NCBI GenBank assembly: GCA_028875245.1
Contig: JAPPEU010000048.1
Location: 1 to 64,000 of the forward strand
Length of the DNA: 64,000 nt
Direction: 5' to 3'
Source: Chloroflexota bacterium
GTDB taxonomy: Bacteria > Chloroflexota > Anaerolineae > Aggregatilineales > Phototrophicaceae
This document shows, piece by piece, positions 1,668 through 11,545 of this stretch. Position 1 is the stretch's first letter; each line of letters opens with the position of its first letter. Both the position numbers and the translations under genes were made by a program. The notes beneath the pieces are model-generated. The model saw only the letters and a list, made by a program, of their open reading frames with translations. It ran no database searches and was not told where the DNA came from.

Positions 1668-3809
1668 ATGAACAAACTGCGACCCGATTCCACCGTGCGC
1701 ACGACCTGCCCCTACTGCGGCGTCGGCTGTCAGATGAACCTGCACATCAAAGACGAGCAGATTTACCGCGTCGAGGCGCCCTTCGACAGCGCGCCAAATT
1801 TCGGCAATCTCTGCGTCAAAGGGCGCTTTGGGCTGGATTTCGCCACGCATCCGCGCCGCTTGAAGAAGCCGCTGATCCGCGATGGCGCGCGCGGCGCATT
1901 CCGCGAGGCGAGCTGGGACGAGGCCCTCGATTTTATCTGCGAACGCCTGACAGCGATTGTGCGCGAATATGGCGGCGACAGCGTCGCCACTTACGCCTGC
2001 GCCAAAGCCACCAACGAAGACAATTACGTCTTTCAGAAATGGGTCCGCGCCGTGATGAAGACGAACAATGTCGACCACTGCGCGCGCCTCTGCCACGCCG
2101 GCAGCGTCACCGGCTTGCAGCTGGCCATCGGCTCCAGCGCCATGAGCAACAGCATCGCCGAGATGGAGCATCTCGATACCTTCATTGTCACCGGCAGCAA
2201 CACGACAGAGACGCACCCGGTCATCAGCCTTTTCCTGAAGAAGGCCGTGCGGGCTAATGGCGCCAAGTTGATCGTCATTGATCCGCGCCAGATCGAGCTG
2301 ACCGACTTCGCGACATTGTGGCTGCGCCAGAAACCGGGCACCGATGTCGCCGTCTTCCAGGCGATGGCCAATGTCATCGTCAGCGAAAACCTCTTCAATC
2401 CCGCGTTCATTGAGGCGCGCACCGAAGGCTTTGAGGATTACATCGAATCGCTGGAACATTGTACGCCGGAATGGGCGGAGACGATCAGCGGCGTGCCGGC
2501 CGACGATATCCGGGCGGCCGCGCGCATGTATGCCACCGCCGAGCGCGCCGCCTTCTACTGGGGCATGGGCATCAGCCAGAGCACGCATGGCACGGACAAC
2601 GCCCTTTCGCTGACCAACTTAGCCTTGATGTGCGGTCATGCGGGCAAGCCTGGCACCGGGCTCAACCCCCTGCGCGGCCAGAACAATGTGCAAGGCTGCT
2701 CCGACAGCGGCGGCTTGCCCAATGTTTACACGGCTTATCAATCGGTCGCTGATACTCAGATCCGGGCGAAGTTTGAAGCGGCCTGGCGCGCGGAGCTGAA
2801 TCCGCAGCCGGGCTTGACCGTCACCGAGATGGTCGACGGCGCGCTGACGGGGCGCATCAAAGCGATGATCGTCCTGGGCGAGAACCCGATGATGAGCGAG
2901 CCGAATCTCTCTCATGCGCAGCACGCGCTGGAAGAATTGGATCTGCTGGTCTGCATCGATATCTTCATGAACGAGACCGGCGAAATGGCCGATGTGATTC
3001 TGCCCTCAGCCAGTTTTGCCGAGAAAGAAGGCACTTTCACCAACAGCGATCGGCGCATTCAGCGCGTCAGACAGGCGCTGCCGGCCGTCGGCGAGGCGCT
3101 GCCGGATTGGCAGATCGTCTGCGCGCTGGCGAAACGGATGGAGGCTGCGCTCGGGGTCGAGGCAAGCGCCGGTTTTGATTATCGGGCGCCGGAAGAAATC
3201 TGGGAAGAAATGCGCGCCTTAACGCCGGACTTCTATGGCATCACTTATGCGCGGCTGGAGGAAGAAGGCGGCGTGCATTGGCCCTGCCCGACGCCCGACC
3301 ACCCCGGCACGCCTTATCTCTTTGAGGACGAATTTCCGCGTGGCAAAGGCAAATTCTGGGAGCTGGAATACGGCACGGACAGCGAGCTGCCAGATGAAGA
3401 CTATCCCTATCACCTCACGACCGGGCGCGTGCTTTTTCACTGGCATGGCGGCACGATGACCCGCAGCTCCCGCCTTGAAGAGGCCTTTCCCGTGCCCATT
3501 GTCGAAATGCATCCCGCGGACGCGGGCGCGCTGCAAGTCGTCTCGGGCGATTGGCTGCGCATCACATCGCGGCGAGGCTCGGTCGAATGCCAGGTGATGG
3601 TCACGGGTCGCTCGCCGGCGGGTACGCTGTTCCTGCCCTTCCATTTCGTCGAGGCGGCCGCCAACCTGCTGACGTTGGATAAGATTGACCCGCGCGCGAA
3701 AATCCCCGATTTCAAGATGGCGGCGGTCAAGCTGGAGAAGGTGGAGCGCGCGGCGACCGTTCTTGAGGAGCAAGGCGCGATCAAAGACCCTGTGCGCTAT
3801 GTGCATTGA
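1668..3809 (+). CDS. fdhA: Formate dehydrogenase catalytic subunit (molybdopterin oxidoreductase)
   Basis: A 713-residue bis-MGD enzyme that should oxidise formate to CO2 in the cytoplasm (no Tat signal). The N-terminus carries the [4Fe-4S] motif C14-x2-C17-x3-C21 and C49 in NLCVKGR. The active site reads VDHCARLCH at 135-143, so C142 takes the place of the selenocysteine found in some homologues and H143 is the conserved neighbour. The C-terminal third has the molybdopterin-dinucleotide-binding fold (HLTTGRVLFHWHGGTMTR). The protein lacks the ~230-residue ferredoxin-like N-terminal extension of FdsA; that part is encoded separately at 10045-10761. The start has AGGAGG six bases upstream. Neighbouring MobA, NuoEF, FdhD and MoeA genes support an NAD-linked formate dehydrogenase. 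Nitrate reductase or another DMSO-reductase-family member is less likely given fdhD. Confidence 0.9.
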   Translation: MNKLRPDSTVRTTCPYCGVGCQMNLHIKDEQIYRVEAPFDSAPNFGNLCVKGRFGLDFATHPRRLKKPLIRDGARGAFREASWDEALDFICERLTAIVREYGGDSVATYACAKATNEDNYVFQKWVRAVMKTNNVDHCARLCHAGSVTGLQLAIGSSAMSNSIAEMEHLDTFIVTGSNTTETHPVISLFLKKAVRANGAKLIVIDPRQIELTDFATLWLRQKPGTDVAVFQAMANVIVSENLFNPAFIEARTEGFEDYIESLEHCTPEWAETISGVPADDIRAAARMYATAERAAFYWGMGISQSTHGTDNALSLTNLALMCGHAGKPGTGLNPLRGQNNVQGCSDSGGLPNVYTAYQSVADTQIRAKFEAAWRAELNPQPGLTVTEMVDGALTGRIKAMIVLGENPMMSEPNLSHAQHALEELDLLVCIDIFMNETGEMADVILPSASFAEKEGTFTNSDRRIQRVRQALPAVGEALPDWQIVCALAKRMEAALGVEASAGFDYRAPEEIWEEMRALTPDFYGITYARLEEEGGVHWPCPTPDHPGTPYLFEDEFPRGKGKFWELEYGTDSELPDEDYPYHLTTGRVLFHWHGGTMTRSSRLEEAFPVPIVEMHPADAGALQVVSGDWLRITSRRGSVECQVMVTGRSPAGTLFLPFHFVEAAANLLTLDKIDPRAKIPDFKMAAVKLEKVERAATVLEEQGAIKDPVRYVH

Positions 3810-3864
3810 GCCGGGTATACACTAAAATGGCAAGCGTTTGTTTAGTTGATGGGTAGGGAAGATC

Positions 3865-4182
3865 ATGAGCGACTTAACCGCCGTCGCCTTGCCAGTCGAA
3901 GAAATCTGCGCTTACTGCCAGACGCAGGCAATTGCGCGGTTGTCACTGCTGGGATCAGACTTTGATGCCTGGTTGCGACCGGAAACGGAAACTGCCATGC
4001 TGGTAGAGTATCTACCTGATGCGTCGATATCATATATTGATATGGCGCGGCAAGAACGTGTTTTGAGCGAAATTATGGGCGGCGCAGTTGACTTGCGTAC
4101 GCCAAACGAGCTTGAACCAACTAGCAAGCAGCAGATACTTGCCGGAGCGACACTTGTCTTTGCCGAAGACGCTGGCGAATGA
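3865..4182 (+). CDS. mntA: MntA-like antitoxin with lost catalytic residues (module 1)
   Basis: A 105-residue minimal nucleotidyltransferase that aligns without gaps to the two copies downstream over its N-terminal half. Active MntA proteins carry a GSx10DxD motif and AMPylate (or polyadenylylate) a Tyr on the HepT toxin. Here G30 S31 remain, but the two metal-binding aspartates (D42 and D44 in copies 2 and 3) are E42 and A44, and the AAR after GS is DFD. The nucleotidyltransferase should be dead, while the 'LVEYLPDA' strand and the C-terminal 'VDLRTPNEL' region are kept. GGGAAG precedes the ATG. The 3' end overlaps hepT1 by about 20 bp. The family is clear; loss of activity is inferred from the residues. 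Confidence 0.8.
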   Translation: MSDLTAVALPVEEICAYCQTQAIARLSLLGSDFDAWLRPETETAMLVEYLPDASISYIDMARQERVLSEIMGGAVDLRTPNELEPTSKQQILAGATLVFAEDAGE

Positions 4183-4507
4183 TCCGACCCGTTTGCGCCA
4201 TATGATGGAATGGGCGCAAACTTCAGAGCTTCTTGTCGCACGTGAATCACGGTATTCCCTCGACGAAAATGTAGCCCTGCGTTTGGCGTTGACCAGAACA
4301 CTGCAAGTCATAGGCGAAGCGGCGAACAATGTCACGGCGGAATCGCGACGAGCGTACCCCGCTATTCCATGGGCTGATATCATCGGTATGCGTCACAAAC
4401 TGGTTCATGTCTACTATGCGGTAGATTTGAATATAGTCTGGACAACGGTCTCTGAGTATGTTCCACCGCTGCTTGCCCAATTGCAGCGCATACTTGAAGA
4501 TGAATAG
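4160..4507 (+). CDS. hepT: HepT-like toxin (HEPN ribonuclease, module 1)
   Basis: About 115 residues with the HEPN signature Rx4HxY in GMRHKLVHVYY; in HepT toxins this forms the RNase active site at a dimer interface. A TTG start at 4160 (LPKTLANDP) is chosen because it aligns with the start of module 2; TTG at 4154 is an alternative, and the upstream ATG at 4088 would only add residues that are mntA read in another frame. The reading frame is intact. Its partner MntA lacks catalytic aspartates, so neutralisation must be by binding alone, by an MntA from modules 2 or 3, or the toxin is itself harmless. Confidence 0.75.
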   Translation: MPKTLANDPTRLRHMMEWAQTSELLVARESRYSLDENVALRLALTRTLQVIGEAANNVTAESRRAYPAIPWADIIGMRHKLVHVYYAVDLNIVWTTVSEYVPPLLAQLQRILEDE

Positions 4508-4539
4508 CGCTGACACAAGTGATTGGAAAACCTGAAATC

Positions 4540-4884
4540 ATGAGCGAGCCCGTCGTTATTGACCTGCCGCTGGAAGCGATCCGCGCTTACTGCGAAGGCC
4601 AGCCAATTCTGCGCCTGTCGGTCTTTGGCTCGGCCGCGCGCAATGAGTTGACGCCGGAGAGCGATATTGATTTGCTGGTTGAATACGAGCCCGAAGCTCG
4701 AATCAGCTTGTTTGATTTAGGCGGGCATCTAATGGACTTTCAGGACATCGTCGGACGCAAAGTCGATCTGGTCACGCCGAAAGGTTTGTGCCCTTACATC
4801 CGCGACGATGTGTTGGATGAAGCGAGGCTTATCTATGCGAAGGAGTCCTGCGCGGGACCGAGTTCATCTGTTGCGCATGCGTGA
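4540..4884 (+). CDS. mntA: MntA antitoxin, minimal nucleotidyltransferase (module 2)
   Basis: A 114-residue nucleotidyltransferase with the complete active-site motif: G30 S31, then ten residues to D42-I-D44. In characterised MntA-HepT pairs this protein modifies the Tyr of the Rx4HxY motif of HepT with AMP and silences it. The ATG at 4540 is preferred over GTG at 4519 because it gives the same N-terminal length as copies 1 and 3. The gene runs 50 bp into hepT2, the usual translational coupling for these pairs. Its DNA is strongly similar to mntA3 around the motif, which points to local duplication. Confidence 0.85.
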   Translation: MSEPVVIDLPLEAIRAYCEGQPILRLSVFGSAARNELTPESDIDLLVEYEPEARISLFDLGGHLMDFQDIVGRKVDLVTPKGLCPYIRDDVLDEARLIYAKESCAGPSSSVAHA

Positions 4885-5200
4885 TGCAGCCCAATATGCA
4901 CAGCAATTCGCTGCTGGCCGCGAGATTGAAGGGCTGAACACCGATATCCAGTTTCGTATGGCTCTTGTAAAAGCAGTCGAGTTAGTCGGCGAATCTGCCA
5001 GCCACACCTCCGATGAGTTGCGCGCCCAGCAACCTCAATTACCATGGAAGAAAATGATTGGCATGCGAAACGTTCTCGTACATAACTATTGGGCGATTGA
5101 GCAGGAGGAGTTCTGGGATGCCGTGCAAATCCACATTCCGGCGCTCATTACCGAACTAGAACGCCTTATCAAACTGGAAGACGAGCGGCGCATGAAGTGA
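4835..5200 (+). CDS. hepT: HepT toxin (HEPN ribonuclease, module 2)
   Basis: A 121-residue HEPN-fold protein with Rx4HxY in GMRNVLVHNYW. The ATG at 4835 (MRRSPARDR) lies inside mntA2 in another frame. The all-helical body and length (about 115-140 residues) fit HepT. This is the only module of the three in which both partners look intact. It has no separate promoter and must be read with mntA2. Confidence 0.85.
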   Translation: MRRSPARDRVHLLRMRDAAQYAQQFAAGREIEGLNTDIQFRMALVKAVELVGESASHTSDELRAQQPQLPWKKMIGMRNVLVHNYWAIEQEEFWDAVQIHIPALITELERLIKLEDERRMK

Positions 5201-5217
5201 CGGCCAGCCACGAGTCA

Positions 5218-5239
5218 TTCTCCCTCGCCATCATCGCCG
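5218..5239 (+). repeat. 22-bp exact copy of the mobA 5' coding region
   Basis: Positions 5218-5239 are identical to 6063-6084, the part of mobA that encodes FSLAIIA just before the GTP-binding loop. The copy lies just after hepT2 and before module 3. It is best read as a leftover of an earlier junction in which mobA followed module 2 directly, before module 3 arose between them. The rest of 5201-5381 shows no gene. Confidence 0.7.
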
Positions 5240-5381
5240 ATACAAACTGTCGCTGCAAGGGAGTCCTGACGCCAGCCAAAAACCAAGTCGCTATGCGCAG
5301 TAGGGTCATTCCCGACCTATTCCCGTAGTATATCTATGCGCAAGCTCTCATGATATGATGATGGTAGAAGGAGCAACCGTC

Positions 5382-5819
5382 ATGACCGAGACAATCCTCG
5401 CAGAGATTCCACTGAAACAAATACGCGAATACTGTGAAAGGCAGCCGATACGGCGACTGTCCGTGTTCGGCTCGGCCGCGCGAGATGAATTGACGCCGGA
5501 GAGCGACATAGATCTGCTCGTAGAGTATCTGCCCGATGCGCCCGTCGGGTATTTCGCCATGGCGCGACATATGAGAGCGTTGAGCGAAATCGTGGGGCGT
5601 CCAGTTGACTTGTGCACTCGAAACGGACTAAAGTACTACATTCGCCAAGAAGTTGACGCTAACGCAAGACTCATTTATTGCGCAAGAGCCCACGGAATGA
5701 TCGGTCGCGTCTGCTTGATATGCTACACGCAGCGCGAATCGCGAATGCATTTGCTAAAGATACTGACCGACAAGCTGTCAAGAACCATTTGGTGCTGCAA
5801 TCTGGCTTGGCCAAGTTGA
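5382..5819 (+). CDS. mntA: MntA antitoxin with run-on C-terminus (module 3)
   Basis: A nucleotidyltransferase with the intact motif G30 S31 ... D42-I-D44. The ATG at 5382 is chosen because AAGGAG sits 8 bases upstream and it matches copies 1 and 2; an in-frame ATG at 5355 lacks this. The normal domain ends near 'ARLIY' (about residue 103), but the frame stays open for another ~43 residues that overlap hepT3 in another frame and resemble no MntA tail. The usual stop seems to have been lost. Overlap with hepT3 is about 140 bp against 50 bp in module 2. Confidence 0.75.
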   Translation: MTETILAEIPLKQIREYCERQPIRRLSVFGSAARDELTPESDIDLLVEYLPDAPVGYFAMARHMRALSEIVGRPVDLCTRNGLKYYIRQEVDANARLIYCARAHGMIGRVCLICYTQRESRMHLLKILTDKLSRTIWCCNLAWPS

Positions 5820-6029
5820 TTCAGGATGTCGGTGAAGCGGCCAACCGAGTTACATCAGAGTTTCAAGCGCGGCATTCCTGCATCCCTATGGAGAGACATG
5901 ATTGACATGCGTAATCATTTGGTGCATGTCTACACCGATATTGACTTCAATGTACTCTGGCAGACGGCAGTTGAGGATCTCCCACCACTAATCTCACAGC
6001 TCGAAGCGATTCTCGGAACTGAAGACTAG
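5678..6029 (+). pseudogene. hepT: hepT broken by a one-base insertion (module 3)
   Basis: Two frames together make one HepT. From TTG at 5678 the frame reads MRKSPRNDRS... to TSEFQARHSCIP and then stops shortly after 5889. One base later, the +1 frame resumes with WRDMIDMRNHLVHVY, including Rx4HxY, and ends at 6029. Removing a single base near A5888 restores an uninterrupted protein that aligns with copies 1 and 2 (IPW in copy 1, LPW in copy 2). The Rx4HxY catalytic part is therefore not translated. A sequencing or assembly error would give the same picture. Confidence 0.75.
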
Positions 6030-6032
6030 CAC

Positions 6033-6656
6033 ATGATGCCTGCCACTTCGTCAGGCTTAAGCTTCTCCCTCGCCATCATCGCCGGTGGGCAGAGCCGGCG
6101 CATGGGGCGCGACAAAGCCTTCGTTGAACTCGCCGGCAAGCCGCTGATTGAGCATGCGCTCGAGCGCAGCGCCGACCTGGGGCAGACCGAGACCATCATC
6201 ATCGCCAACAAACCGGCGCAGTATCGGCATCTTGGCTTGCCCATGTATCGCGATGTCCTGCCGGGCAAGGGTTCGCTCGGCGGGATCTACACCGCCCTCG
6301 TCAAGGCCAAGCGCCCTCATGCGCTCGTGCTGGCCTGTGATATGCCCTTCGTCAATGCTGACCTGCTGCGCTTCATGATCGCGCAAATGGACAACGAGCT
6401 GGACATCGTTGTGCCGACCGTCGACGCCTACCCGCAGGGATTGCACGCGATTTACAAGAAAACCTGCATCAAGCCGATTGCCGAGCAGCTTGCGGCGGAC
6501 CGGCTGAAGATCATCCGTTTCTACGATCAGATGCGGGTGCGATATCTCGACGAGACCGATTGCGCGCCATTTGACCCCGACGGGCGCTGTTTCACCAACC
6601 TCAATACGCCGGCGGAACTGGCGGAAGCGGAACGATTGCTCGGCGCGCCCCGCTAA
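6033..6656 (+). CDS. mobA: Molybdenum cofactor guanylyltransferase
   Basis: A 207-residue protein with the GTP-binding loop IAGGQSRRMGRDKAF near residues 14-28 and the metal-binding CDMPF near 107-111. MobA joins GMP to molybdopterin to make the MGD cofactor of DMSO-reductase-family enzymes. Length and fold fit the family. ATG at 6033 or 6036 is used; no good ribosome-binding site is seen, so coupling to upstream reading is possible. It serves the formate dehydrogenase encoded on both sides. It lies only 3 bp after the broken hepT3. Confidence 0.9.
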   Translation: MMPATSSGLSFSLAIIAGGQSRRMGRDKAFVELAGKPLIEHALERSADLGQTETIIIANKPAQYRHLGLPMYRDVLPGKGSLGGIYTALVKAKRPHALVLACDMPFVNADLLRFMIAQMDNELDIVVPTVDAYPQGLHAIYKKTCIKPIAEQLAADRLKIIRFYDQMRVRYLDETDCAPFDPDGRCFTNLNTPAELAEAERLLGAPR

Positions 6657-6695
6657 GCCCGCAGAATGCTCGCCACAATCTGATACAATGTGGCT

Positions 6696-8420
6696 ATGGC
6701 GATTCAAACTGAACTCGACGCGATTCTAGCAGGCTACGAAGGGCGCGGGCGCGAGGCGCTTCTGCCGGTGCTCTGGGAGGCGCAGGGCGCTTTCGGCAGC
6801 ATCAGCCCCGAACAGGTTCACCGCATTTCGCACGCGCTGCGCCTGCCCGAGGCCGATATCTTCGGCGTCATCGGCTTTTACACCCTCTTCCACGATGAAC
6901 CGACCGGCCGGCGCATCATCCGCGTCTGCACCGACCCGACTTGCGCGCTGGCCGGCGCGGACGATGTTTTGCATCACCTGTGCGAGCGGCTGGCCATCCA
7001 TGAAGGCGAGACGACGCCGGACGGCGAATACACGGTGGAGCACAGTCCTTGCCTGGGCCTGTGCGATTATGCGCCGGCTGCCCTGGCGAGCGCGCGCGCT
7101 GAAGCCGATGTGGCGCTGCCAACTGTGACGGCCGAGGGCCTGCTGAGCGAATGGAATGACGATTATTTCGATCCAGCGGGAGACGCTGATTCGGCGCTGC
7201 TCAAGCCGACGCTGAACGCCGCGCCGGAGACCCTGCCGCAATACGGCGACTACAAATCGCTGCGGCGGGCAATCGCGGAGATGAAGCCGGAAGAAGTGAT
7301 CGCCCAAGTGGAAGCCTCCGGCCTGATCGGACGTGGCGGCGCCGCCTTCCCCACCGGCTTGAAGTGGAAGTTCACCCGCGGCGCGGCCGGCGATATCAAG
7401 TATGTCGTCTGCAACGCCGACGAGAGCGAGCCGGGCACCTTCAAAGATCGCGTGCTGATGGAGCATCGGCCGCACCTGCTGCTCGAGGGCATCGCCCTGG
7501 CGGCCTATGCAGTGGGGGCGGACAAGGCATACATTTTCATTCGCGGCGAATATCCCAAGGCGACGGCGATATTGGCGGCGGCGATACAAGAAGCGGAAAG
7601 GGCGGGCCTCCTGGGCGGAGCGATCATGGGGGACGCATTCGCGCTCGATATCGAGCTGCGGCGCGGCGCCGGCGCCTATATCTGCGGTGAGGAGACCGCG
7701 CTCTTCGAGGCGATCGAGGGCAAGCGCGGCTTCCCGCGGATGAAACCGCCCTACCCCACCACCTTCGGCTTGTTTGGCAAACCAACCGCTGTGAACAATG
7801 TCGAGACGCTCTGCGCCGTGCCGAGCATCATTGAAAAGGGCGCGGACTGGTTCAAGGCGATCGGGACCGACGGCAGCGCTGGACCCAAGCTTGTGTCTGT
7901 AAGCGGGCATGTAGGACGGCCCGGCGTCTATGAGATTGAACCGGGCATCACCCTGCGTCATTTCCTGGACGAAGTCTGCGGCGGCGTCATCGGCGACTTG
8001 CAGACGGTGCTGATGGGCGGCGCGGCCGGCACGTTTTTGATGCCGGAGGACATAGACCTCAGGTTGACATTCGAGGACCTGCGCGCGGCCGGCAGCACCT
8101 TCGGCTCGGGCGCCATCATGGTCTTCAATCAGACGGTTGATCTGCGCGATGCGCTCAAGCGGCTGGGGCGTTTCTTCCAGCATGAAAGCTGCGGCAAATG
8201 CTTCCCCTGTCAGCTGGGCACGCAGCGCCAGGTCGAGATCCTCGAGCGGCTGGACGCGCCGCAAGCGGGCGACGCCGAGCGCCTGCTGGATATCGGCATG
8301 ACGATGACGGAGGCGTCCATCTGCGGCTTGGGGCACACGGCCGGCATCGCCGTCATGAGCGCGCTCGAGAAGTTTCCGGAGTTGTTTGCCCCCATCCCTC
8401 GGTCCCTTCCCCCAAAATGA
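6696..8420 (+). CDS. NuoE-NuoF fusion, diaphorase subunit of formate dehydrogenase
   Basis: A 574-residue fusion of a 24-kDa-type and a 51-kDa-type subunit. The NuoE part (1-155) has [2Fe-2S] ligands C78, C83, C119 and C123 (VCTDPTC and CLGLC). The NuoF part (from about 175) has the FMN/NADH-binding GRGGAAFPTG near 212-221, GAGAYICGEETAL, and [4Fe-4S] ligands in ESCGKCFPC near 497-503 plus SICGLG near 540. The pair corresponds to FdsG and FdsB of soluble NAD-dependent formate dehydrogenases. It should take electrons from the ferredoxin-like subunit at 10045 and reduce NAD+. ATG at 6696 is preferred to GTG at 6690. A TACAAT box ends only 8 bp before the ATG, so a leaderless transcript is possible. 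Because no other Nuo genes are present, a respiratory complex I role is unlikely. Confidence 0.88.
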   Translation: MAIQTELDAILAGYEGRGREALLPVLWEAQGAFGSISPEQVHRISHALRLPEADIFGVIGFYTLFHDEPTGRRIIRVCTDPTCALAGADDVLHHLCERLAIHEGETTPDGEYTVEHSPCLGLCDYAPAALASARAEADVALPTVTAEGLLSEWNDDYFDPAGDADSALLKPTLNAAPETLPQYGDYKSLRRAIAEMKPEEVIAQVEASGLIGRGGAAFPTGLKWKFTRGAAGDIKYVVCNADESEPGTFKDRVLMEHRPHLLLEGIALAAYAVGADKAYIFIRGEYPKATAILAAAIQEAERAGLLGGAIMGDAFALDIELRRGAGAYICGEETALFEAIEGKRGFPRMKPPYPTTFGLFGKPTAVNNVETLCAVPSIIEKGADWFKAIGTDGSAGPKLVSVSGHVGRPGVYEIEPGITLRHFLDEVCGGVIGDLQTVLMGGAAGTFLMPEDIDLRLTFEDLRAAGSTFGSGAIMVFNQTVDLRDALKRLGRFFQHESCGKCFPCQLGTQRQVEILERLDAPQAGDAERLLDIGMTMTEASICGLGHTAGIAVMSALEKFPELFAPIPRSLPPK

Positions 8421-8428
8421 GGGAAGGG
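8404..8428. repeat. Short palindromic element at the end of nuoEF
   Basis: CCCTTCCC (8404-8411) and GGGAAGGG (8421-8428) form an 8-bp stem with a 9-base loop that contains the nuoEF stop codon. A similar C-rich/G-rich hairpin with an 'aaagcataa'-like loop lies at 15900-15923. No T-run follows, so this is more likely a small dispersed repeat than a terminator. Confidence 0.5.
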
Positions 8429-8451: not shown

Positions 8452-9357
8452 ATGGCGTTTGCACAAACTTTGTGGGACAAAGCAAAATCAGAAGTGTCTT
8501 CTCCGCCTACAATTGAAAACTGCGATTGCCGTTTAGGGATGATGAGAATTGACGACAATCATGTTTCTCTTGTATTGACTGACCCTCCGTATTTTATAGA
8601 TGGAATGGACAATAACTGGAATTCACATAAGCTCAAGAAACGTGTGAAACCCGGAGTTGTCGGAGCTCTCCCTGCCGGGATGAAATTCTCTTCTGAACAA
8701 GGACGAAACCTGCAGAAATTTTTACAACCAATCGCAGAAGAATGGATGCGGATATTGCGCCCCGGAGGGTTCGCATTGGTCTTTAGCCAGAACCGGCTTG
8801 TTCATCGAACTGCACTCGCGCTGGAAGAATCGGGATTCGAGATTCGGGATATGCTGCTATGGAAATACGAGGGACAAGCTAAAGCATTCACGCAAGAACA
8901 CTTTGTGCGCAAAAGCAAACTGCAGGAGTCTGAAAAGGAACGGCTTATAAAGAAATTGGGCGGTCGCAAAACCCCACAACTGAAACCCCAAGGCGAATTG
9001 ATTGTGCTTGCGCAAGCTCCTAGAGAAGGTACATTTGTACAGAACTGGGATAAGTGGGAAACGGGACTAATTGACGTATCGAATCCATATATAGACAGAG
9101 GGCGATTTCCAGGAACGGTAATGGCCGTCTCCAAGCCCAAGAAACGATTTGGTCATATGACTGCAAAACCAGTAGATTTGTTGCGCCATTTAATCAGGAT
9201 ATTCTGCGCACCAGGATCGCTGGTGTTTGATCCGTTTGCTGGTTCAGGGTCTACCGGCGTGGCCGCATTGCTGGAACGGCGCGAGTTCCTAGGGTTCGAA
9301 ATTGAGACAGACATGGCAAGACGCGCCAATGAACGAATTGGAGAGCTGCATGTATGA
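8452..9357 (+). CDS. Site-specific DNA methyltransferase (N4/N6 amino type)
   Basis: A 301-residue beta-class methyltransferase: the catalytic TDPPY comes first (residues 43-47) and the SAM-binding FDPFAGSGSTG comes near 260-270. AAGGAG stands before the ATG at 8452. It should methylate an adenine or cytosine N in the recognition site of the endonuclease encoded directly downstream. It overlaps that gene by 8 bp. Base composition is visibly more AT-rich than the flanking formate dehydrogenase genes, and the pair sits between two subunits of one enzyme, which suggests insertion by transfer. The recognition sequence cannot be read from the gene. Confidence 0.88.
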   Translation: MAFAQTLWDKAKSEVSSPPTIENCDCRLGMMRIDDNHVSLVLTDPPYFIDGMDNNWNSHKLKKRVKPGVVGALPAGMKFSSEQGRNLQKFLQPIAEEWMRILRPGGFALVFSQNRLVHRTALALEESGFEIRDMLLWKYEGQAKAFTQEHFVRKSKLQESEKERLIKKLGGRKTPQLKPQGELIVLAQAPREGTFVQNWDKWETGLIDVSNPYIDRGRFPGTVMAVSKPKKRFGHMTAKPVDLLRHLIRIFCAPGSLVFDPFAGSGSTGVAALLERREFLGFEIETDMARRANERIGELHV

Positions 9358-10048
9358 TTTACCCTCTAGGTCCGCATTGCAAAAGGCTTGGGAAGACTTG
9401 CAAGAAATACACGCACAATATCTTGCAAAGTACCGCGTTAAACTTCCCCCAGCAATTCAATATGATGAACAAGCCAGGTCAATATGGCTCTCGGTACTGT
9501 TCCACTATCAGGATCAGGGGCAGGACGTCCACAAGAATTTCATAAGCGCAGTGTGCCAAAGAGATTACCCCGGTCTCGCTCCCGACCAACAGGTCCGCCA
9601 TTTGAAGCGAGATGGATGGAAGTTGCATAATGACGGAAAAGGCAACCATAGGCTAGACCCATTCCAACCATCATTAGAATACCTCAACACAGAATATCGG
9701 AAAGATGGGCTGCTTGCCGCTAAGTCATTTGACGATATCAAACGCACTTTCGGATATAGTTGCGCGACTTGTGGCGCGCGTGAAGGATGGCCCGACCCAC
9801 GTTATGGAGAAGACAAAGTTAGACTACAAAGAGGTCATCGAGACCCAGCCAAACCGGCTAACGATAAGCTAAACATTATACCGCAGTGTCAGTTTTGCAA
9901 TCGGGCGTACAGAGGGGATTTTGTCTTTGATGAAAAGGGGCGCGCATGGGCCGTCGCCGACATTGGGCCAGTCCAACGAGCTTCTACTGATGTGAAGAAG
10001 AAATTGTTGCAATTCCTTAGAGGCCTCTTCAACGGGGTAGGCAAATGA
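9350..10048 (+). CDS. HNH-type restriction endonuclease
   Basis: About 232 residues. The C-terminal half carries a zinc-supported HNH site: CATCG, then RGH, then NIIPQCQFCNRAY (pattern C-x2-C ... H ... N ... C-x2-C ... N). The ATG at 9350 (MYDLPSRSA) overlaps the methyltransferase stop as ATGTATGA and follows GGAG; ATG at 9329 is a possible alternative. Coupling to a DNA methyltransferase supports a type II restriction role. Its stop overlaps the next start (ATGA at 10045), so the downstream formate dehydrogenase subunit is translationally coupled to a restriction enzyme. The AT-rich composition matches the methyltransferase. Confidence 0.8.
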   Translation: MYDLPSRSALQKAWEDLQEIHAQYLAKYRVKLPPAIQYDEQARSIWLSVLFHYQDQGQDVHKNFISAVCQRDYPGLAPDQQVRHLKRDGWKLHNDGKGNHRLDPFQPSLEYLNTEYRKDGLLAAKSFDDIKRTFGYSCATCGAREGWPDPRYGEDKVRLQRGHRDPAKPANDKLNIIPQCQFCNRAYRGDFVFDEKGRAWAVADIGPVQRASTDVKKKLLQFLRGLFNGVGK

Positions 10049-10761
10049 TCAAAGACACAATCAAACTGACGCTCGACGGCGAAGAGATCGAAATCACAAA
10101 AGGCGCGACGCTCCTGGAGGCGGCCCAGCAAGCCGGCGTCGACATCCCCGTCATCTGCTACCACGAAGCGACCTCGCCCAACGGTCTCTGCCGCATCTGC
10201 GTCGTCGATGTGGACGGCGGGCGCGTCTTGCAGCCGGCTTGCGTTGCCGAGTGCCAGGCTGATTCCACTGTGGAAACGCGCAATGAACGGGTCGAGCGCA
10301 GCCGGCGGACGATCCTGGAGATGCTGAACGCCTCGGTCAACCTGGACGAAGCGCCCGAAATCCAGCAAATGATGGCTGATTACGCCGCCGACGATGCTCG
10401 CTTCCCGGACGCTCATTTACGTGAACATACGTTAATTGATGATAATCCCTTTTACGTGCGCGATTACGAGCAATGCGTCTTGTGCTGGCGCTGCGTGCAG
10501 GTCTGCGCCGAAGACGCGCAGTACACCTTCGCCTTGACACTGAAGAACCGCGGGCACGAGACCTCAGTCACTACCGCTTTTGACATTTCGATGACCGAGT
10601 CGCCCTGCGTATTCTGCGGCCAATGCATCGGCGTCTGCCCGACCGGCGCGCTCAAGCCGAAGCTGGAATGGGGATTGGAACAAGGCTGGAGCGCCGACGA
10701 GATCTGGCAAATGACACGGCGAGAGCGGAAGCGCGCGAGAGAAAACAGCGATGGCGAGTAA
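10045..10761 (+). CDS. Ferredoxin-type electron-transfer subunit (NuoG/FdsA N-terminal-like)
   Basis: A 238-residue iron-sulfur protein equal to the N-terminal region of FdsA or to HoxU/NuoG-N. It has a [2Fe-2S] domain with C38, C49, C52 and C66, then two [4Fe-4S] motifs: C144-x2-C147-x2-C150-x3-C154 and C188-x2-C191-x2-C194-x3-C198 (followed by P). The His-Cys3 cluster that normally lies between these parts (HxxxCxxC...C) is missing: residues 81-130 contain no Cys. It should bridge the catalytic subunit FdhA and the NuoEF fusion. It overlaps the endonuclease gene by 4 bp and fdhD by 11 bp. Confidence 0.85.
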
Positions 10762-11545
10762 ACCGCGGGAGAAAATACAGGGCGCAGCACCCTTCAGCTA
10801 TCAGGTCATTGAAGGCGACCGGGTTCGACAGGTCGACGGCGGCGTAATCGATGAGCAGCTGCTGTCGATCTATGTCAACGGCGAATCCCTGGCGACCATG
10901 ATGTGCAGCCCTGTGCAGCTGGAAGCGCTGACGGTCGGCTTCCTGTACAACGAAGCGGTCATCGACTCCGCTGACGAAATCGCCCTGCTGCAGCTCAACC
11001 GCACGCAGGCCGTCGCCGATGTGATCCTGACCCGCGACGAGGTTGCGCTGCCGCGGCGGATGATCCTGACGACGGGTTGCGGCGGCGGCGTGACCGGCCA
11101 GGAACTCTCCAAGGCCTTCCCCGCCATTGAATCCGGCTTTACGACAAAACCGGCGGTCATCCTGCGCTTGATGCGCGCGCTGCAGGGCGCCGCTCGGCTT
11201 TATAATGCTGTGCGCGGCGTGCACACGGCCGTACTCGGCGACGAAAGCGGATTGCTGGTCAGCGCGGAGGATGTCGGGCGGCACAACGCGGTCGACAAGG
11301 TCGCGGGCCAGACGCTGCTGGATGACATCGACACAGCCGACAAGCTGTTGTTGACGAGTGGGCGCATCAGCTCGGAGATGCTGGGCAAGGCGCGGCGCAT
11401 GGGGATTCCGCTGGTGGCGAGCCGCACCGCGCCCACAAGCGTCACGGTCGAGCTGGGGCAAACCTGGGGCGTCTGCGTGGTCGGCTACGTGCGGAGCGGC
11501 GGGATGCGCGTTTACACCAATGGCTGGCGGCTGGGGCTGGATTAG
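10751..11545 (+). CDS. fdhD: Formate dehydrogenase accessory sulfurtransferase
   Basis: A 264-residue FdhD/NarQ protein, which passes sulfur from a cysteine desulfurase to the Mo-bisMGD cofactor and so activates formate dehydrogenase. Family marks are the substrate loop TTGCGGG near residues 117-123, the block [14 protein letters not shown] and the block [12 protein letters not shown]. Only one Cys is seen in the loop, where the E. coli protein has a C-x2-C pair. The start overlaps the previous gene by 11 bp, so it is co-translated with the ferredoxin-type subunit. Confidence 0.9.

Follow-up and report, generated by a model that had tools for sequence, protein, structure and literature searches.

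The closest described counterparts of the locus considered here are the minimal mobile elements of Neisseria, which passages of three reports present as whole-gene cassettes between two conserved genes and attribute to homologous recombination (PMC3082526, PMC3898611, PMC7973814). According to passages in two of these, restriction-modification systems are frequently found at such sites, and one site of this kind is pheS/pheT (PMC3082526; PMC7973814). There are also the integrase-free hotspots, for which the relevant passages of PMC5635113 propose recombination at flanking core genes, the mechanism also proposed below, and list defence among the overrepresented functions; as described there, those are intervals between core genes generally, whereas the site described here is a junction internal to an operon and of few bases when empty. 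It lies in a formate dehydrogenase operon, between nuoEF and the gene for a ferredoxin-type subunit (fd), and appears to work like a Neisseria minimal mobile element compared between species.

As at pheS/pheT, a conserved gene pair for two subunits of one enzyme accommodates varying cassettes, often of restriction-modification type; the flanks are conserved, the cassettes differ (between species) and there are no mobility genes. The departures from the Neisseria elements are that the variation here spans the species of one genus of uncultured Chloroflexota together with a further genus, that every intact cassette overlaps the start of the next gene, that two unrelated restriction-type modules are involved, that there is a second site in a transporter operon, and that MNT-HepT pairs sit in another junction of the same cluster. 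A limited literature search by title and abstract found no paper describing the nuoEF-fd site.

The methyltransferase-HNH pair at the centre of this analysis is quite probably a type II-like restriction-modification cassette in an exchange site between nuoEF and fd, and the junction makes better sense as a place inside the operon where restriction modules are exchanged than as the seat of a locked-in pair. If so, integrase-free exchange of defence genes is possible even inside a tightly coupled metabolic operon, with unrelated modules using the same few bases, and it occurs outside the Neisseria-type bacteria in which such sites were defined. The natural series of empty, full, nuclease-deleted and replaced junctions would offer a test of defence genes riding on host expression, and a probe of which part of an inserted gene is indispensable to the host. 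There is also a warning in it: that a defence gene has a stop/start overlap with a core gene is no evidence of its being locked in.

Anatomy of the locus

The window (the whole stretch of DNA analysed, 64,000 nucleotides) holds the following features around the junction.

1668 to 3809, forward strand: fdhA, molybdopterin catalytic subunit (PF00384, PF01568, PF04879)
3853 to 6029, forward strand: three tandem MNT-HepT pairs in the fdhA-mobA junction (NTP_transf_2 plus HepT-like; positions by tblastn, the first MNT placed by similarity alone)
6033 to 6656, forward strand: mobA-like gene (PF12804)
6690 to 8420, forward strand: nuoEF fusion, left conserved flank of the proposed exchange site (PF01257, PF01512, PF10589; 2Fe-2S_thioredx, Complex1_51K and NADH_4Fe-4S domains)
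8404 to 8428, no strand assigned: palindromic stretch across the nuoEF stop
8452 to 9357, forward strand: DNA N6/N4 methyltransferase, DPPY then FAGSG (PF01555, E 6e-32; motifs)
9350 to 10048, forward strand: HNH-type nuclease, putative restriction endonuclease (invariant Cys/His/Asn set, structure model, weak Foldseek match to Cap5)
10034 to 10041, forward strand: Shine-Dalgarno-like GGGGTAGG for fd, in the last nuclease codons
10045 to 10048, forward strand: ATGA, 4-bp overlap of nuclease stop and fd start
10045 to 10761, forward strand: fd, HoxU/NuoG-N-like ferredoxin-type subunit, right conserved flank (PF13510 and others)
10751 to 11545, forward strand: fdhD (PF02634)

The initial annotation had described an AT-richer restriction-type pair, wedged between two subunits of one enzyme and overlapping the ferredoxin-type subunit by 4 bp, and in this it was right. 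Open reading frames and domains place the pair at 8452-10048, abutting both neighbours, GC is 0.47-0.50 across it, lower than in fd (0.58-0.60) and in the nuoEF windows (0.62-0.66), and the nuclease stop and fd start share ATGA. An assembly accident is excluded by the same gene order in two other genomes of the genus, with 78-80% HNH identity. The formate dehydrogenase label is reasonable because the catalytic fdhA lies upstream; for fd itself the NCBIfam match is HoxU-like and below cut-off. The best start for the HNH gene is the ATG at 9350, with a Shine-Dalgarno-like stretch of -6.4 kcal/mol and an 8 bp overlap with the methyltransferase gene. Owing to the palindrome at the nuoEF stop, the C-terminus of NuoEF is unusual (..FAPIPRSLPPK), and in G067 a similar but different palindromic stretch lies at the same place. 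Between 8300 and 10150 there are only two repeats, both of chance length.

Occupancy of the junction in relatives

What lies between nuoEF and fd in other species? One genome was taken per species, and the comparison is accordingly between species; the genus sample comprises 34 genomes, 30 of them with fd, giving 31 operon copies. The methyltransferase with its HNH partner is present in three copies (G000, the window's own genome, G062 and G064), the methyltransferase with most of the HNH gene deleted in two (G086, G083), and the methyltransferase with an unrelated GmrSD_N-HNH gene in one (G091). GmrSD_N-HNH alone fills the junction in eight (G085, G073, G087, G075, G069, G084, G092, G080), short non-coding stretches in five (G067, G078, G065, G077, G079), and 12 are empty (G094, G068, G088, G071, G072, G090, G074, G066, G089, G070, G093 and a second copy in G086), the empty form measuring 52 bases between NuoEF codon 555 and the start of fd. 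Two unrelated modules thus use the one junction: the methyltransferase, whether or not HNH accompanies it, in 6/31 and GmrSD_N-HNH in 9/31, one copy holding both; the series shows different, unrelated defence-type genes that have apparently been gained, lost and replaced repeatedly at one spot.

Outside the genus the junction can be read at 13 loci, of which G048 and G049 carry GmrSD_N-HNH, ten are empty and G033 has a 371-base stretch; a few further genomes cannot be read here because the contig ends. A gene order that is ancient and shared by many distant genomes was not found, the methyltransferase-HNH pair being present in 3/31 genus copies and at none of the 13 other-genus loci. In all these copies and loci nuoEF and fd are either adjacent or separated by an insert only, and the inserts hold only restriction-type ORFs, flush with both neighbours, without mobility genes. 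GmrSD_N-HNH occurs in 11 of 154 genomes of the order, in two genera, at the nuoEF-fd junction every time (11/11), and 400 genomes of the phylum yielded one more, from another family (G297), at a locus where reading found no nuoEF or fd ORFs.

As to scars, G065 (L088) retains a probable 5' remnant of the methyltransferase gene, matching in register, and L071, L082, L093 and L094 gave no convincing cassette remnant (best p 0.005-0.11, 14 references each, no register support). An apparent in-frame TGA inside fd of G047-G049 was discarded; the alignment had run past the stop. The two formate dehydrogenase operon copies of G086 (L068, L095), one with the methyltransferase and one empty, may reflect contamination (4%).

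Other junctions of the cluster and a transporter operon

The cluster has a second occupied junction. At least one MNT-HepT pair lies between fdhA and mobA in 23 of the 24 genus loci with mobA upstream, G064 being empty; the count leaves out 7 of the 31 loci, where mobA is absent from the stretch or a contig end intervenes. Such pairs are there in G048 and G049 also, and no more than about 125 bp separates fdhA from mobA in G042, G025, G016, G017, G033 and G057. PADLOC matches the MNT proteins to PDC-S09. The number and alleles of these toxin-antitoxin pairs vary among relatives. The fd-fdhD junction holds no insert above 300 bp in any of the 31 copies, and the inserts of more than 1.3 kb between fdhD and moeA1 in G088 and G094 were set aside: by reading, they are small genes of other kinds, with no restriction genes among them.

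Restriction-type modules recur away from formate metabolism. In 33/34 genus genomes a gene for an ABC ATPase (PF00005) neighbours one for a PnrA/Bmp-type substrate-binding protein (PF02608), and the methyltransferase-HNH family of the window lies upstream of the ATPase gene in four. In eight, among them the window's own genome (G000:C53, L210), the place in this bmp-ABC junction is taken by another type II methyltransferase, paired with an uncharacterised protein of 368 residues; a third methyltransferase is found in three and a fourth in two, an aspartyl-protease-like pair without methyltransferase in ten, only a small gene in one and short gaps in five. For G066 and G085 the gene upstream of the ATPase lies beyond the contig end. 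Across the genus this junction hosts four kinds of methyltransferase module; it is a looser one than nuoEF-fd, and co-transcription of its gene pair is assumed.

Might the tying of defence expression to formate metabolism itself have been selected, the modules being kept because co-regulation is useful? Defence-type modules do occupy two junctions of one cluster, MNT-HepT pairs at fdhA-mobA and restriction genes at nuoEF-fd, and stop/start overlaps are universal among intact copies, but with 12/31 genus copies empty, a nuclease that decays and an unrelated transporter operon hosting similar modules, we regard this as unlikely while still allowing it some chance.

Replacement in place

Inserts and flanks part company in identity. 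G048 and G049 have 93% amino-acid identity in nuoEF and 96% in fd (93-96% over NuoEF, Fd and FdhD) but 46% in the insert, while G085 and G075 have 93% in nuoEF, 95% in fdhD and 50% in the insert; G069 and G073 have the reverse pattern, 79% in nuoEF and 93% in the insert, although the rise in identity is not carried over into the flanks, a point against the exchange reading. Along the region, DNA identity shifts near the ORF ends; for G075 and G085 the first fd windows are also low, and the breakpoint may there lie inside fd. At synonymous sites G062 and G064 differ by a dS of 0.47 in nuoEF and 0.40 in fd as against 1.50 in the methyltransferase and 1.85 in HNH, values of about 1.5 and above being rough and the cassette differing in base composition. 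Nor is the methyltransferase simply fast at such sites, since in the control comparison of G064 with G091 its dS is 0.40 and that of nuoEF 0.42. Judged by these identity and dS patterns, cassettes have been replaced in place.

The trees are less uniform. That of GmrSD_N-HNH departs from the operon tree. The methyltransferases of the junction group together in a clade of their own (92/92), as do the transporter-operon copies (100/99), which suggests one founding entry per site; part of the methyltransferase data can also be explained by one founding insertion that was then inherited and to some extent transferred. A stricter version, in which each module was inserted once in antiquity, inherited vertically and repeatedly lost with no exchange at all, draws on that single junction clade and on the commonness of scars and deletions; it is improbable, given near-identical flanks around inserts that are 46-50% identical in G048/G049 and G085/G075, the reverse in G069/G073, a dS for G062/G064 that is 3-4 fold higher in cassette than in flanks, and a GmrSD_N-HNH tree that does not match that of the operon.

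For an exchange site, the most likely way in for new cassettes would be homologous recombination through the conserved flanking genes, with DNA taken up from related species. The mosaic identity and dS patterns fit recombination in the flanks. A ComEC-family gene is present in 34/34 genus genomes (control matches in 10 of 14 well-known genomes), which permits DNA uptake without proving competence, ComEC being present also in bacteria not known as competent.

The join with fd

All 14 intact last genes, 3 HNH and 11 GmrSD_N-HNH, overlap the fd start, seven by 4 bp and seven by 11 bp. At the empty sites inspected nuoEF and fd overlap by 8 bp or lie 3-4 bp apart, with one overlapping by 4 bp. In the transporter operon HNH ends about 30 bp before the next gene (6 bp in G078, the exception). 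The junction form of HNH has extra C-terminal residues (NGVGK and similar) that are absent from the transporter-site copies, and the extra codons hold a Shine-Dalgarno-like stretch for fd, of -6.6 to -8.6 kcal/mol at five loci including both nuclease-deleted ones. Medians are -3.4 kcal/mol for GmrSD_N-HNH loci and -4.6 for empty sites, random 15-mers of the window having a mean of -2.1. It had been claimed that the restriction gene must be read to make the enzyme; in the translational sense this is not supported, as fd in the window has a Shine-Dalgarno-like stretch of its own, of -6.6 kcal/mol, inside the 3' end of the nuclease gene.

The two deletions are informative about what is kept. They spare the last 15-31 HNH codons beside fd; G083 keeps, in addition, about 22 codons from the beginning of the gene, and in G086 the methyltransferase frame is extended and stops 12 nt short of fd. 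Both tails retain the Shine-Dalgarno-like stretch, and therefore the nuclease has been lost but the fd ribosome site spared: apparently the nuclease is dispensable and the junction sequence is not.

Inside the pair a promoter scan found one site as against 1.9 expected by chance, and promoter and terminator scans gave nothing above shuffles. A separate fd promoter within the insert, which would have told against the initial annotation, was not found, and because no promoter-like site there exceeds chance, transcription of the pair with the operon is likely. The operon is apparently also translationally coupled at the junction. Stop/start overlap alone is no proof of that, and PMC2997769 reports overlapping restriction genes as translationally independent. 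A 15-nt inverted repeat (9917-9931 / 10048-10062), linking HNH codons with the fd start, was entertained as a coupling hairpin and then taken as chance because, by eye, its fd-start arm is absent in G062 and partial in G064.

Does this make the cassette a selfish one whose loss would break the operon, as first supposed? It abuts both neighbours tightly and the nuclease deletions keep the tail beside fd, but loss does not look costly: besides the 12 empty junctions there are the five with short non-coding stretches, and among the six methyltransferase-bearing copies two have the nuclease deleted and a third has a different nuclease, with the flanking genes still found. We consider such a lock quite improbable. 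The exchange-site reading would have it that the site accepts cassettes of whole genes in which the last one overlaps the fd start, by which, it is proposed, fd expression is preserved; a resident cassette would be transcribed with the operon, its nuclease could decay and other modules could replace it.

The methyltransferase and nuclease proteins

The methyltransferase has the features of type II restriction-modification, PF01555 with DPPY and FAGSG motifs, and the pair resembles type II systems with HNH endonucleases in having such a methyltransferase followed by an HNH nuclease gene. It differs in that its HNH family is without matches in Pfam (E<=10), NCBIfam (E<=0.01) or PADLOC (E<=1). 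An alignment of 24 sequences has C138, C141, H163, N175, C180, C183 and N184 invariant. The HNH structure model is fairly confident (mean pLDDT 84.9) and its Foldseek matches are weak, the most telling being Cap5 (probability 0.90 but E 0.18), a protein with an HNH nuclease domain; a PDB search gave HNH a chance-level match only (E 0.71) and GmrSD_N-HNH none. From motif and gene pairing, with no characterised homologue found, the HNH protein is the probable endonuclease of the pair, which would then be expected to restrict DNA. In favour of the cassette reading, dN/dS is 0.04-0.08 in the methyltransferase and, where HNH is full length, 0.05-0.10 in HNH. There are HNH relatives at 43-57% identity in unrelated phyla, and the module therefore moves widely.

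The GmrSD_N-HNH protein shares the N-terminal GmrSD_N domain (PF03235) with GmrSD restriction enzymes and differs in its C-terminal HNH domain (PF01844); no match to the GmrSD C-terminal domain is reported in these proteins, and on its domains the protein is filed only as GmrSD_N-HNH. A common origin of methyltransferase and GmrSD_N-HNH, suggested by a shared MAF start, was dropped; the GmrSD_N-HNH of the other family starts MAFNP.

In the order the methyltransferase family (E<=1e-60) occurs in 13/154 genomes, six times at the nuoEF-fd junction, four times in the transporter operon and three times elsewhere, with a linked HNH gene in ten (split in G094), HNH remnants in two (G086, G083) and none in one (G091). 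Free-standing intergenic homing endonucleases are the comparison for a reading in which the HNH nucleases cut the empty junction and so drive their own insertion. This is very unlikely, for although both junction modules end in an HNH nuclease, GmrSD_N-HNH keeps to one site in the order and inserts are flush with both neighbours, the HNH gene travels with a methyltransferase, the pair lies at other places in 7/13 genomes, the second-site modules include a partner without HNH match, and the GmrSD_N-HNH of G297 lies away from nuoEF and fd. It would be just as surprising if both modules' nucleases homed into the empty nuoEF-fd junction as part of a general colonisation of coupled operon junctions by restriction genes with operon-dependent expression.

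One of the relatives with a named record is Chloroflexi bin20 (L114), and the other named bins are presumably also from sponges. According to passages of PMC5649159, bin20 is one of the bins that come from the sponge Aplysina aerophoba, and restriction-modification genes are enriched in sponge symbionts. In L099 (G094) the HNH gene is broken into two frames beside what reads as a transposase-like ORF. In L125 and L126 a methyltransferase-HNH pair of this family precedes what reads as a gene for a CoxL/xanthine dehydrogenase-type molybdenum hydroxylase, by about 70 bp in L125.
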